A DNA stretch of 64,000 nt from an uncultured Tateyamaria sp. Its GTDB lineage: Bacteria; Pseudomonadota; Alphaproteobacteria; Rhodobacterales; Rhodobacteraceae. Shown here piece by piece: positions 40,567 through 43,130 of this stretch (position 1 is the first letter of the stretch; each line of letters starts with the position of its first letter). The stretch covers positions 62,001 to 126,000 of the forward strand of contig NZ_CANNGP010000004.1 in NCBI RefSeq assembly GCF_947504105.1. Reading direction: 5' to 3'. The notes beneath the pieces are model-generated. The model was not told the origin of the DNA, made no database searches, and worked only from the letters and a program-made list of their open reading frames with translations. The position numbers and the translations under genes are program-made.

Positions 40567-40764
40567 GTGTGCTCCCATAGCATTAAAGCCCCGTCCATGG
40601 GGGCTGATCGGAAATTCGCGCCCTTCTATGCAGCGTGGATGCGGTGTGCAAGGGGATTGGCGCATGTCACGTAAAAATGGGTAGATTGGACGCGCCGGAC
40701 GGATTGATCCGCGAGGGCTTGCAACGCTCGTGCGCCACCACAAGGCGACCACACAGCAACTTTT

Positions 40765-40825
40765 TGGTGCGGGCGGGGAGACTCGAACTCCCACACCTTG
40801 CGGCGCCAGAACCTAAATCTGGTGC
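40765..40825 (-). pseudogene. 3' half of a split tRNA-Leu(UAG)
   Basis: On the minus strand this 61-base segment reads from the anticodon stem-loop (CCAGA-TTTAGGT-TCTGG) through the variable arm and T-arm to the acceptor CGCCCGC and encoded ACCA end. The D-arm and 5' acceptor strand are missing here and are found at 42459-42499. Together, with the shared 17 bases counted once, they make an 85-base tRNA, equal to the intact copy between them. Confidence 0.85.
40809..40825. repeat. Attachment-site core, left copy
   Basis: 17-base direct repeat identical to 42459-42475, lying in the anticodon stem-loop of the split tRNA-Leu. The bases on either side differ between the copies. Confidence 0.8.
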
Positions 40826-40885
40826 AGGCTTCGACGGACCAAGTAAACAAGGGGTTTCTGAAGGGATGCTGCCGTTGGTTGCCGA

Positions 40886-40898
40886 TGTTGCTGCAACA
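40886..40898. repeat. Inverted repeat near left att core
   Basis: TGTTGCTGCAACA, a near-copy of the 13-mer at 42320-42332. Further GCAAC units follow at 40902-40906 and 40913-40917. Candidate integrase arm-binding sites. Confidence 0.4.
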
Positions 40899-40947
40899 TT
40901 CGCAACAGCTCCGCAACAAACCTTCGGAGGTAGATAGTATCTGATGT

Positions 40948-41032
40948 TGGTGCGGGCGGAGGGACTTGAACCCACACACCTTGCGGTACGGGAACCTAAA
41001 TCCCGCGCGTCTACCAATTCCGCCACGCCCGC
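40948..41032 (-). tRNA. tRNA-Leu(UAG), intact, within the inserted element
   Basis: 85 bases with encoded CCA. Acceptor GCGGGCG pairs with CGCCCGC; the anticodon stem CGGGA/TCCCG holds loop TTTAGGT, anticodon UAG. A long variable arm marks a class II tRNA. The first 26 bases match the split gene, but the anticodon stem and T-arm differ, so it is not a simple copy. It reads codons CUN of leucine. It lies five bases after the small gene ending at 41038 and may be processed from its transcript. Confidence 0.95.
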
Positions 41033-41037
41033 TCCAG

Positions 41038-41178
41038 CTACCCAGGAAACTCCCGAGAAATCAGGTGACCAAGACCCAGTGCGCTAACCGCAGCCAGCCC
41101 GGACCACCATCCGCCGAAGTAAAGGCTGACGATAACGAGGGCAATAGCCAAAAGCATCTTAGCGTGGGTCGAAGTCAT
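41038..41178 (-). CDS. Small membrane protein in phage remnant
   Basis: 46 residues, MTSTHAKMLLAIALVIVSLY then a Gly/Trp-rich hydrophobic stretch (FGGWWSGLAAVSALGLG) and a short tail. Two short hydrophobic segments. No family recognised; phages often carry such genes (holin-like or superinfection proteins). The stop is five bases before the intact tRNA-Leu. No strong ribosome site is seen. Confidence 0.4.
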   Translation of the reverse strand: MTSTHAKMLLAIALVIVSLYFGGWWSGLAAVSALGLGHLISREFPG

Positions 41179-41232
41179 GTCGTGTTTCTATGCCCGTTCC
41201 GCCCCGCAGTCTACGGCCCAGAAAGCGGAGCA

Positions 41233-41433
41233 TCACATGAACCCCCGCTTCTGGACTGCGTCGATTGCCCACGCACCGTAGGCAAAGCCGAAGATTGGAA
41301 GCGCGAGGAACTCGGCTACCTGAATGGCTTTGGTCTCCGGGGCTTGAATGCCCCAGATAAAGAGCGTGAATAGAAAGACCAACATGGCACCAGCGACCTC
41401 ACGTTTGTAGGTCTTCTCGCCGGTGTCGGTCAT
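41233..41433 (-). CDS. Small two-helix membrane protein in phage remnant
   Basis: 66 residues: charged start MTDTGEKTYKREVAG, helix AMLVFLFTLFIWGI, loop, helix VAEFLALPIFGFAYGAWAI, and end DAVQKRGFM. The start overlaps the stop of the preceding scaffold-like remnant by four bases, which suggests an intact phage gene order at this point. Function unknown; size and topology fit a phage holin or spanin-like protein, but this is a guess. Confidence 0.5.
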   Translation of the reverse strand: MTDTGEKTYKREVAGAMLVFLFTLFIWGIQAPETKAIQVAEFLALPIFGFAYGAWAIDAVQKRGFM

Positions 41434-42304
41434 CGTGCTGTCAGGAATGCGCTCTTGGCGATCTTCGCTTCGACTTGCTTGCGGAACGCTTCAGAGGTCT
41501 TGTAGCGAGGGTCGGACATGTCCTTCTTCATCGCCTTCATATCCGCATAGCCTTCCGTGGCTTTGGGTGTCTTGCCGCCAAGCGGTGTCGTTTCTTTCCC
41601 GAACTCAGCAGCGTATCGTGCCTTGGCGGCGTTCACTGCGGCGAGGGACTTACCGAAGTCGCCGGAGCTTACCGCTTCGTTGTAGGCGACCTTCTCCTCT
41701 TCGGTGTATTGGGACTGGACGAACTCACGGATGCGGGAAAACGCCTCGTCACCACCGACCGATGCCTTGATCGCGTTGATCTCAGCAGCGGAGTTGTCTT
41801 CAACTTCCTTGCAGCCAGACGTTCTAGGACCTTGTCCGTGTCGAAGGTCCCTGTCAGGGCGGGGTTGGACAGGAAGCCAGCCGCTTTCGTCAGGAAGGCT
41901 TCGAGGCGCTGGCCTTCGTCTTCGCGGCCTAGTGCAGCGAGACCTGTGACAATCGCGATGTCAACGCCATCAGGTAGCTTCCCGATCTTACTCTTCTTCC
42001 GCATTAGGAAGATGCGACGCTTCACATACCGGACGGCGAGGTGTCGCTTCCCTGACCCGGGCTGCGCCGCCTTCTCAAGGAACCCTTCGATAGCCCCTGC
42101 GATCTTCTCGACCGACATCGCGACGAGGGTCTTGCCATACCGGGTGCCGCTCTCGTTCCCCTTCTCCCGTGCTTTCGCGATCTGCTTCCTGATCTGGTTT
42201 CGGCCCAGCGCAACCATCCGTTCCTCCAGCTCGATCTCCCGGTAGAGGTCTTCCCCATAGGCCATGATCAGGTCCTCTTCGGGGCGGCGAAGTTCTGCGT
42301 TCAT
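41430..42304 (-). pseudogene. Phage RNA polymerase N-terminus joined to phage scaffold C-terminus
   Basis: The 5' part (42304 to about 41815) reads MAYGEDLYREIELEERMVALGRNQIRKQIAKAREKG and RHLAVRYVKRRIF, resembling the N-terminal domain of T7-like single-subunit RNA polymerases. The 3' part, in a different frame, reads VGGDEAFSRIREFVQSQYTEEEKVAYNEAV and ADMKAMKKDMSDPRYKTSEAFRKQVEAKI, resembling the C-terminus of T7-type capsid assembly scaffold proteins. An internal deletion has joined an early and a late gene. Assignments rest on pattern recognition only. Confidence 0.55.
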
Positions 42305-42319
42305 TCGTGCAATCTCCAG

Positions 42320-42332
42320 TGTTGCGGCAACA
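42320..42332. repeat. Inverted repeat near right att core
   Basis: TGTTGCGGCAACA, differing in one central base from 40886-40898. It lies inside the element, 127 bases from the right core. Confidence 0.4.
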
Positions 42333-42458
42333 ATGTTGCGGCGGGTGATTATCTAATGCAGACTGGAATACATCTGCGCAAAGCAAAGGCGCAGGCTCGA
42401 AAGCCCACGCCCGCTGTGATTTTGGAGACCTATCGAAGTGTGGATAGATTAAAGGATG

Positions 42459-42475
42459 GAACCTAAATCTGGTGC
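42459..42475. repeat. Attachment-site core, right copy
   Basis: 17-base direct repeat identical to 40809-40825, at the broken end of the 5' tRNA half. Confidence 0.8.
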
Positions 42476-42499
42476 GTCTACCAATTCCGCCACGCCCGC
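42459..42499 (-). pseudogene. 5' half of a split tRNA-Leu(UAG)
   Basis: On the minus strand it starts with acceptor GCGGGCG, then the D-arm (GGAATTGGTAGACGC) and the anticodon stem-loop through TTTAGGTTC, after which phage-side sequence (CATCCTTTAATC) replaces the 3' half. It completes the fragment at 40765-40825. Confidence 0.85.
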
Positions 42500-42626
42500 A
42501 ACACCAGCCCCCATAGCAAAGCAAATTGAAGGATGCGAGACGTATTTGTGTAAAAACCACGCGACATTAAAGGTCTATTCAGGTATTATGCCGGTAACCT
42601 AGAGGCAGGTTACAGAAAGAGACGCC

Positions 42627-43130
42627 ATGAAACCGAATACGGTCGGGCGCGAAACAGGTGGGCGGATGCCCCCTTTGCGCATTGACATTGCACATGTCGG
42701 GCTTGTGTCCGGCACCCTTATCTTGACAGCGGATGGTGAAATGCCGGTCGAGTATCTCTCGGCAGGTGACAGGATCATCACGCGGAACGCGGGCCTTGTG
42801 CCGCTGGCCGCCAGCCAATCCTATCGCACCACGGACGAGGCGGTGAAAATTGCCGCCGGATCCTTAGGGGATACAAAACCCACACACAACGTCATCATAC
42901 CCGCAGCCCAGATGGTGCTGGTGCGTGACTGGCGGGCCAAGGCATTACGCGGTGCCGCGCAAGCCGTGATGCCCGCCTGGTGCCTGATTGATGATGAGTT
43001 CATTACATCTTTGGGGCAGCGTGAAATGACACTGGTGCGGCTTGGATTCGAAGCGCCCCACATCATTTATGCGGATGGTCTGGAATTGTCAGTGCCCTCG
43101 ATGGCCTTGACGGGGGCCGCTGCAGCTTAG
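42627..43130 (+). CDS. Hint-domain protein
   Basis: 167 residues. The Hint (hedgehog/intein) fold of Rhodobacteraceae is seen in GLVSGTLILTADGEMPVEYLSAGDRIITRNAG, VIIPAAQMVLVRDWRAKAL and LVRLGFEAPHIIYADGLELSVP. The usual catalytic Cys at the start of the domain is not present (GLVSGTL), so self-splicing is unlikely. In related proteins the domain is often a stand-alone or C-terminal module of secreted proteins. It is convergent with nnr, the stops overlapping by a few bases. Confidence 0.8.
   Translation: MKPNTVGRETGGRMPPLRIDIAHVGLVSGTLILTADGEMPVEYLSAGDRIITRNAGLVPLAASQSYRTTDEAVKIAAGSLGDTKPTHNVIIPAAQMVLVRDWRAKALRGAAQAVMPAWCLIDDEFITSLGQREMTLVRLGFEAPHIIYADGLELSVPSMALTGAAAA

Follow-up and report, generated by a model that had tools for sequence, protein, structure and literature searches.

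A T7-like prophage scar in a Tateyamaria genome that probably survives as a replacement tRNA-Leu(UAG) gene

The principle of tRNA-dependent lysogeny is already published: it was defined in mycobacteriophages (Guerrero-Bustamante and Hatfull, mBio 2024, PMC10865867), in an account that counts the Lactobacillus prophage Lj965 as a likely example beyond this group, calls the prevalence elsewhere open and gives cores that include lengths of 8 to 17 bp. The locus described here is like the actinobacteriophage systems of that report in its essentials – a short core lying within a host tRNA gene, no rebuilding of that gene, and a phage tRNA of the same isotype. Those systems, however, are intact and tested phages, whereas ours is a decayed T7-like prophage without an integrase, in another phylum and known from its genes alone.

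Among T7-like phages, the Lo5R7ANS-like prophages of Sinorhizobium meliloti are reported to replace tRNA-Leu(UAG) (PMC11476347, PMC12429752). Like our element, they are T7-like, inactivate the host tRNA-Leu(UAG) gene and bring a tRNA-Leu(UAG) of their own; the same accounts present them as intact in two strains and, where they deal with these prophages, describe no decayed form, whereas the one considered here is decayed. A foreign alphaproteobacterial likeness is also noted there for the Sinorhizobium case (PMC11476347). Pseudomonas phage LUZ100, a T7-like phage of temperate type, resembles our element in combining MarR, tRNA-Leu, integrase and polymerase genes in one module, and its tRNA has been discussed as possibly left from imprecise excision (PMC10134795). 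T7-like cyanophages are alike in having an integrase and an attP in tRNA-Leu; their attP motifs are described as 39 bp matching the first half of tRNA-Leu, with integration but without stable lysogeny (PMC8776855). An attP of this length would be expected to rebuild the tRNA, unlike that of our element. Finally, T7-like roseophages are described as having no tRNAs (PMC11092137), in line with the six that we fetched.

Against this background, the locus is very probably what is left of a temperate T7-like phage with tRNA-dependent lysogeny, in a host that would now depend on the phage tRNA. What is apparently new is the end state, in which a prophage has shrunk to roughly 4% and retained its tRNA, together with the evidence for the system being common among such phages of temperate T7-like type. 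The titles and abstracts that we searched, mainly of open-access journals, described no decayed prophage that is retained for its replacement tRNA and made no statement on tRNA-dependent lysogeny for T7-like phages as a group.

The locus lies in a 64-kb window (the whole stretch of DNA that was analysed; all positions below refer to it). A native tRNA-Leu(UAG) gene, encoded on the minus strand and flanked by a Hint-domain gene and trigger factor, is cut at the anticodon loop by an insert of 1,634 bp (40826–42459). Sequence comparison places the native 5' half at 42460–42499 and the 3' part at 40765–40825 (both on the minus strand; the unique portion of the 3' part is 40765–40809), and each includes one copy of an exact 16-bp repeat, AACCTAAATCTGGTGC, that spans the anticodon loop. 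These att core copies lie at 40810–40825 beside the host 3' half and at 42460–42475 beside the host 5' half (the latter, on the minus strand, being GCACCAGATTTAGGTT). Their starts are 1,650 bp apart, which bears out the 1.65-kb scar described in a first-pass annotation of this DNA.

Joined in silico, the flanks form a tRNA-Leu(TAG) that is identical to the intact gene of 11 of the 19 congeners, the remaining eight having an 84-nt variant. An intact tRNA-Leu(TAG) is present in all 19; among the matches listed, the window's two half-genes lie next to each other in 15 of them, with the core as their overlap, and the upstream match extends past the tRNA in 13. The insert beyond its tRNA has no match in any of the 19, so that a single one of the 20 genus genomes carries the element. 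As every congener has the intact gene and none the insert, the insertion is derived, and this comparison (n = 19) argues that the broken native gene and its insert are not due to chance.

Within the insert lies a complete tRNA-Leu(UAG) gene (40948–41032, minus strand; 85 nt with the CCA, anticodon TAG), which was also the single tRNA found when ARAGORN was run on the whole window (reported as 41032–40948, minus) and is of the same isoacceptor as the broken host gene. It had been described at first pass as sharing the anticodon and the first 26 bases with the native gene while differing in the anticodon stem and T-arm, and alignment agrees. Rebuilding of the host tRNA at one junction is ruled out, the internal tRNA being the only one in the window. 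The anticodon stem differs from the core both in the window and in relatives, a difference that might protect the phage's own tRNA gene from the integrase.

At an E-value cut-off of 1e-24, the element tRNA is 88–91% identical to UAG-type genes in 12 other family genomes, and the seven of these matches that were fetched are all native UAG genes beside tig (trigger factor). Its best match outside the element among 394 family genomes, at 91%, is the native gene of another genus, and no near-identical copy occurs in the 394. The possibility, raised by the first-pass annotation, that the same tRNA stands outside the element in relatives can thus be set aside: it was found in none of the 19 congeners, nor, with this best identity of 91%, in the other family genomes. 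Comparison with phage tRNAs, also proposed there, showed that the phage relatives carry a cognate tRNA, and the pattern of the anticodon region of the element's own gene has no exact match in IMG/VR.

The old host promoter region, largely conserved in genome G012, is co-oriented with the element tRNA at a distance of 1.4 kb. Two observations count against the reading preferred here: a terminator-like hairpin (42412–42387) lies between that region and the tRNA, and a promoter scan of 40600–42800 found no promoter-like site on the tRNA's strand. We infer that the tRNA is expressed and essential, and that selection is the cause of its retention.

Profile matches identify the insert as a collapsed T7-like prophage, with its pieces on the minus strand. 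An attachment-side stretch (42305–42459), recognised by comparison with the phage contig L079 discussed below and containing a hairpin, an AGATAAT motif and a GTTGC palindrome, precedes an N-terminal piece of RNA polymerase (42020–42241; phrog_414, positions 7–77 of 816, E 3.2e-8). Next come a portal (head–tail adaptor) piece that shares the reading frame of the polymerase piece (41810–42007; phrog_449, 398–465 of 520, E 1e-6) and, in another frame, the C-terminal piece of a scaffolding protein (41445–41801; phrog_1052, 173–293 of 293, E 3.4e-30), which also matches Pfam Phage_T7_Capsid above cut-off. The succession of polymerase, portal and scaffold on one strand is the gene order of T7. Two hydrophobic ORFs follow, one of 66 aa (41233–41433) and one of 46 aa (41038–41178) whose stop lies 5 nt before the tRNA, and homologue searches with both were negative. 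The tRNA is joined to the core by an attachment arm of 122 bp (40826–40947, minus), in which sequence comparison found the block GCAACATCGGCAAC in common with L079.

The polymerase piece amounts to 71 of the 816 profile positions and was matched by tblastn to annotated T7-like polymerases in five records; it is through this N-terminal piece alone that the insert shows a single-subunit phage RNA polymerase. A deletion scar fuses the polymerase and portal pieces in one frame (41810–42241, minus) within a 211-aa ORF, which may or may not be expressed. P0002 had no Pfam match, which we count against the preferred reading. When the DNA of the insert was compared with phage records, 313 matched, with a best coverage of 10%, and those listed matched mostly at tRNA-Leu genes or attP sites.

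A tyrosine integrase, present in L079 and in annotated relatives, was not found in the 1.63-kb insert. The integrase being gone, the element is a remnant and not a working lysogeny system; nor is it a functional prophage, since fragments are all that stands for intact integrase, replication and structural genes. To judge from its sequence, it is probably a T7-like prophage that has undergone several deletions and lost the integrase among other genes. If the parent measured about 40 kb, as its relatives do (37–47 kb among the records listed), about 4% of it is left; and if it was arranged like L079, the integrase deletion may have run to the edge of the tRNA, where the 46-aa ORF stops.

The source genome is a 4.76-Mb draft in 214 contigs with a completeness of 100%, and its gene content suggests a Roseobacter-type alphaproteobacterium. 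RF00005 returned 38 tRNA genes, all typed, in which leucine has the anticodons CAA, GAG and CAG besides the TAG of the element. When the tRNA was used as a BLAST query with E-values of up to 10 allowed, the matches were the element gene itself, both native halves, the genes for GAG and CAG, and four stretches of 14 bp; neither these two methods nor two patterns yielded a second intact UAG-Leu gene in the 214-contig draft. The supposition that the element might hold the genome's only tRNA-Leu(UAG) thus agrees with the count – one intact gene, the element's – for a draft in which a Leu(UAA) gene was not seen either. The latter result counts against the preferred reading; at one mismatch, Leu(UAA) is also missing in three of the 19 congeners, and the gene may be divergent or lie in a gap, which makes the inventory imperfect.

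By the rules of decoding, UAG is the one anticodon among these leucine anticodons that reads CUA. The codon is in use: it makes up 36 of the 15,568 codons in 36 mechanically chosen long ORFs of the window, 21 of which contain it. Across the family, a UAG anticodon-arm pattern with up to three mismatches was found in 332 of 394 genomes (a figure that includes the window's own genome, and in which a match does not always mean an intact gene); two matches occur in only five of the 332, so UAG-Leu is mostly single. In one family genome, at G222:C1:913651-913917, two perfect UAG-Leu anticodon-arm matches lie 238 bp apart, which may represent a tandem copy or another replacement event.

The IMG/VR collection yielded one near relative of the window's polymerase piece, on contig L079, which has the nearest polymerase found (47% identity over query residues 16–95); the full L079 polymerase, used as query, found only itself. 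On L079, a MarR-like ORF (called by comparison with annotated phages) is followed by a tyrosine integrase, a tRNA-Leu(TAG) at 2309–2394, a TAG core at 2545 and the polymerase at 2718, the core being a second one, separate from the tRNA. Opening the L079 circle at this core would give the gene order of the window, a predicted circular permutation. The tRNA–core stretch is homologous in both, with the block mentioned above exact over 14 bp, and the block with AGATAAT and the GTTGC palindrome before the polymerase is likewise common to them.

If a phage tRNA replaces the gene broken by integration, a separate core of the same isoacceptor is expected in such phages. We scanned 22 loci: 19 database phages, picked by us among the records listed and compared in their integrase regions, and L079, L091 and L092 from IMG/VR. 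Ten have a complete tRNA-Leu near the integrase – UAG in L079, RHEph01, RHEph21 and Lo5R7ANS; UAA in LUZ100, HTVC200P, HTVC119P, YIMV22061, Pasto and L091 – and 12 have no tRNA. In all ten tRNA-Leu-bearing loci, a cognate core that is not part of the tRNA stands downstream of the integrase; the polymerase was located in nine of them, and in each of the nine the core stands between the two genes. First-order resampling puts the chance expectation of a cognate 8-mer at 0.6–6.4% for each of the nine intervals, figures to be read with the 8-base cores having been chosen after the matches were seen and with some of the phages being close kin (RHEph01/RHEph21, HTVC200P/HTVC119P).

A non-cognate core occurs in one of the nine intervals, that of Pasto. 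Ten of the 12 tRNA-less loci entered the core count (L092 and Jormungand were left out); nine have neither core, and S-SRP02 has one UAA core within an apparent partial tRNA-Leu. For LUZ100, the separate UAA core between integrase and polymerase suggests that its tRNA is functional. Within the host family, T7-like polymerases were found in four of 394 genomes, and the stretches fetched around them contained no UAG-Leu tRNA or core.

Integrated relatives were sought in species genomes with eight aligned polymerases as the query, and 80 of 154 loci were kept. In 13 of the 80, by our reading, the 5' half of a tRNA-Leu breaks off at the anticodon loop no more than 1.5 kb from the polymerase. Ten of the 13 were taken further and the far end was read in eight, and in seven of these prophages it holds a complete tRNA-Leu of the same isoacceptor. 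Six of the seven have an integrase match (weak in L192, E 1.5e-6; none in L191), and in six prophages the host 3' half was found behind the cognate tRNA. The eighth, L158, has rebuilt a chimeric tRNA instead, which we count against both the preferred reading and the general claim made below. This 9.9-kb T7-like element (L158:9780-19800), in an alphaproteobacterial MAG, has a broken and a rebuilt tRNA-Leu(UAA) at its ends and contains a polymerase, several replication-type ORFs (by translation) and an integrase, with no structural gene recognised; it is either a phage satellite or a prophage that has decayed in part.

A complete chromosome, that of Xanthobacter sp. YC-JY1 (NZ_CP032674.1), gave 44 tRNA matches, and typing was restricted to the 11 longer than 80 nt, where leucine genes are expected. 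The typed set includes one each of Leu CAA, CAG, GAG, TAG and TAA. The TAA gene belongs to the prophage and is the only Leu(UAA) among the 11 typed long chromosomal tRNA genes, and the broken host site yields no tRNA. The view that the element tRNA supplies the function destroyed by integration, as first put forward from the window, is well supported by this case, by the regular occurrence of a cognate tRNA in the modules of relatives and by the lack of a second UAG gene in the searches of the draft.

Other loci show further arrangements. Seven genome contigs have a complete tRNA-Leu(UAA) near the polymerase; five of them also have a cognate core apart from the tRNA, one (L134) is truncated, and L189 is without a separate core. 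In L118, L126 and L144 an intact Leu(UAG) stands close to the polymerase, and these three are by appearance of the rebuilding type. In L118 and L144 it belongs to intact Arg-His-Leu(UAG) clusters 0.6–0.9 kb upstream of a T7-like polymerase, and some relatives thus seem to rebuild the host tRNA, a further point against the general claim. L162 has two copies of a tRNA-Leu(CAA) 5' half with core, about 1.2 kb and 0.1 kb upstream of the polymerase and both between integrase and polymerase, which adds a third isoacceptor; the doubled half perhaps reflects a tandem or an excised form.

The preferred reading draws on the split gene with its 16-bp cores and complete cognate tRNA; on phage pieces in genome order, without an integrase, and empty sites in the congeners; on the same module in free and integrated relatives; and on CUA codons being in use with no second UAG gene found. 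The history that we propose begins with a phage integrase, since deleted, which would have carried out recombination between a short attP core and the anticodon arm of the host's tRNA-Leu(UAG) gene, leaving that gene in two pieces and not rebuilt. The phage tRNA-Leu(UAG), carried beside attP, would then have taken over the reading of CUA. Later deletions would have stripped away nearly the whole prophage, integrase included; as those that took the tRNA would have been lethal, it would have been kept, leaving the host dependent on a phage-derived tRNA.

A phage origin does not by itself demand selection, and the tRNA might have persisted neutrally through fast decay, little time and a position near an att end. 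The split native halves have no substitution against the 11 congeners, so the insertion may be recent, which we count against the preferred reading; the element is present in just one of 20 genomes; and its tRNA, 122 bp from the core near one att end, could have survived the deletions by position, a further point on that side. We nevertheless regard neutral persistence as unlikely in a draft genome with no second UAG gene found and a family in which that gene is mostly single. According to the first-pass annotation, loss of the element would need precise excision. The logic of this stands, but the requirement may have exceptions: rare recombination between the 16-bp repeats could occur in the absence of an integrase, and an empty-site strain could donate the locus.

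The other explanations have still less to recommend them. Were the element tRNA a mere passenger, with UAG-Leu function provided by a copy on unassembled DNA or a plasmid, the 214 contigs and the unseen Leu(UAA) gene would leave room for such a copy; a completeness of 100%, and BLAST and pattern searches that give no other UAG gene, make this quite improbable. We are equally sceptical that the element arrived already short, mobilised in trans or introduced by homologous recombination from a carrier strain: unmutated native halves beside a heavily deleted insert would suit such an arrival, yet no second place with the element was found among the 20 genus genomes, and the tRNA is without a near-identical copy in the 394 family genomes. 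An assembly artefact, for which the draft state of the genome might be cited, is hardly credible for an insert inside a 183-kb contig, with exact att cores and attachment arms homologous to those of an independent phage contig (L079).

Beyond this locus, and with distinctly less assurance than for the locus itself, we lean towards the view that tRNA-dependent lysogeny is usual in tRNA-bearing temperate T7-like phages well beyond Actinobacteria (Leu UAG/UAA), and that it leaves 'tRNA fossils', in which host tRNA genes are permanently displaced and the prophage erodes toward its indispensable part. For the question of prevalence left open by the mycobacteriophage account (PMC10865867), the data point to a whole group, the temperate T7-like phages, and they give a likely function to the tRNA-Leu that stands beside the integrase in such phages. 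The end state that they suggest is a bacterium dependent on one phage gene after the phage itself has gone. If true, lineages could exchange conserved tRNA genes in this way, and it would be understandable that a small prophage scar is hard to lose.
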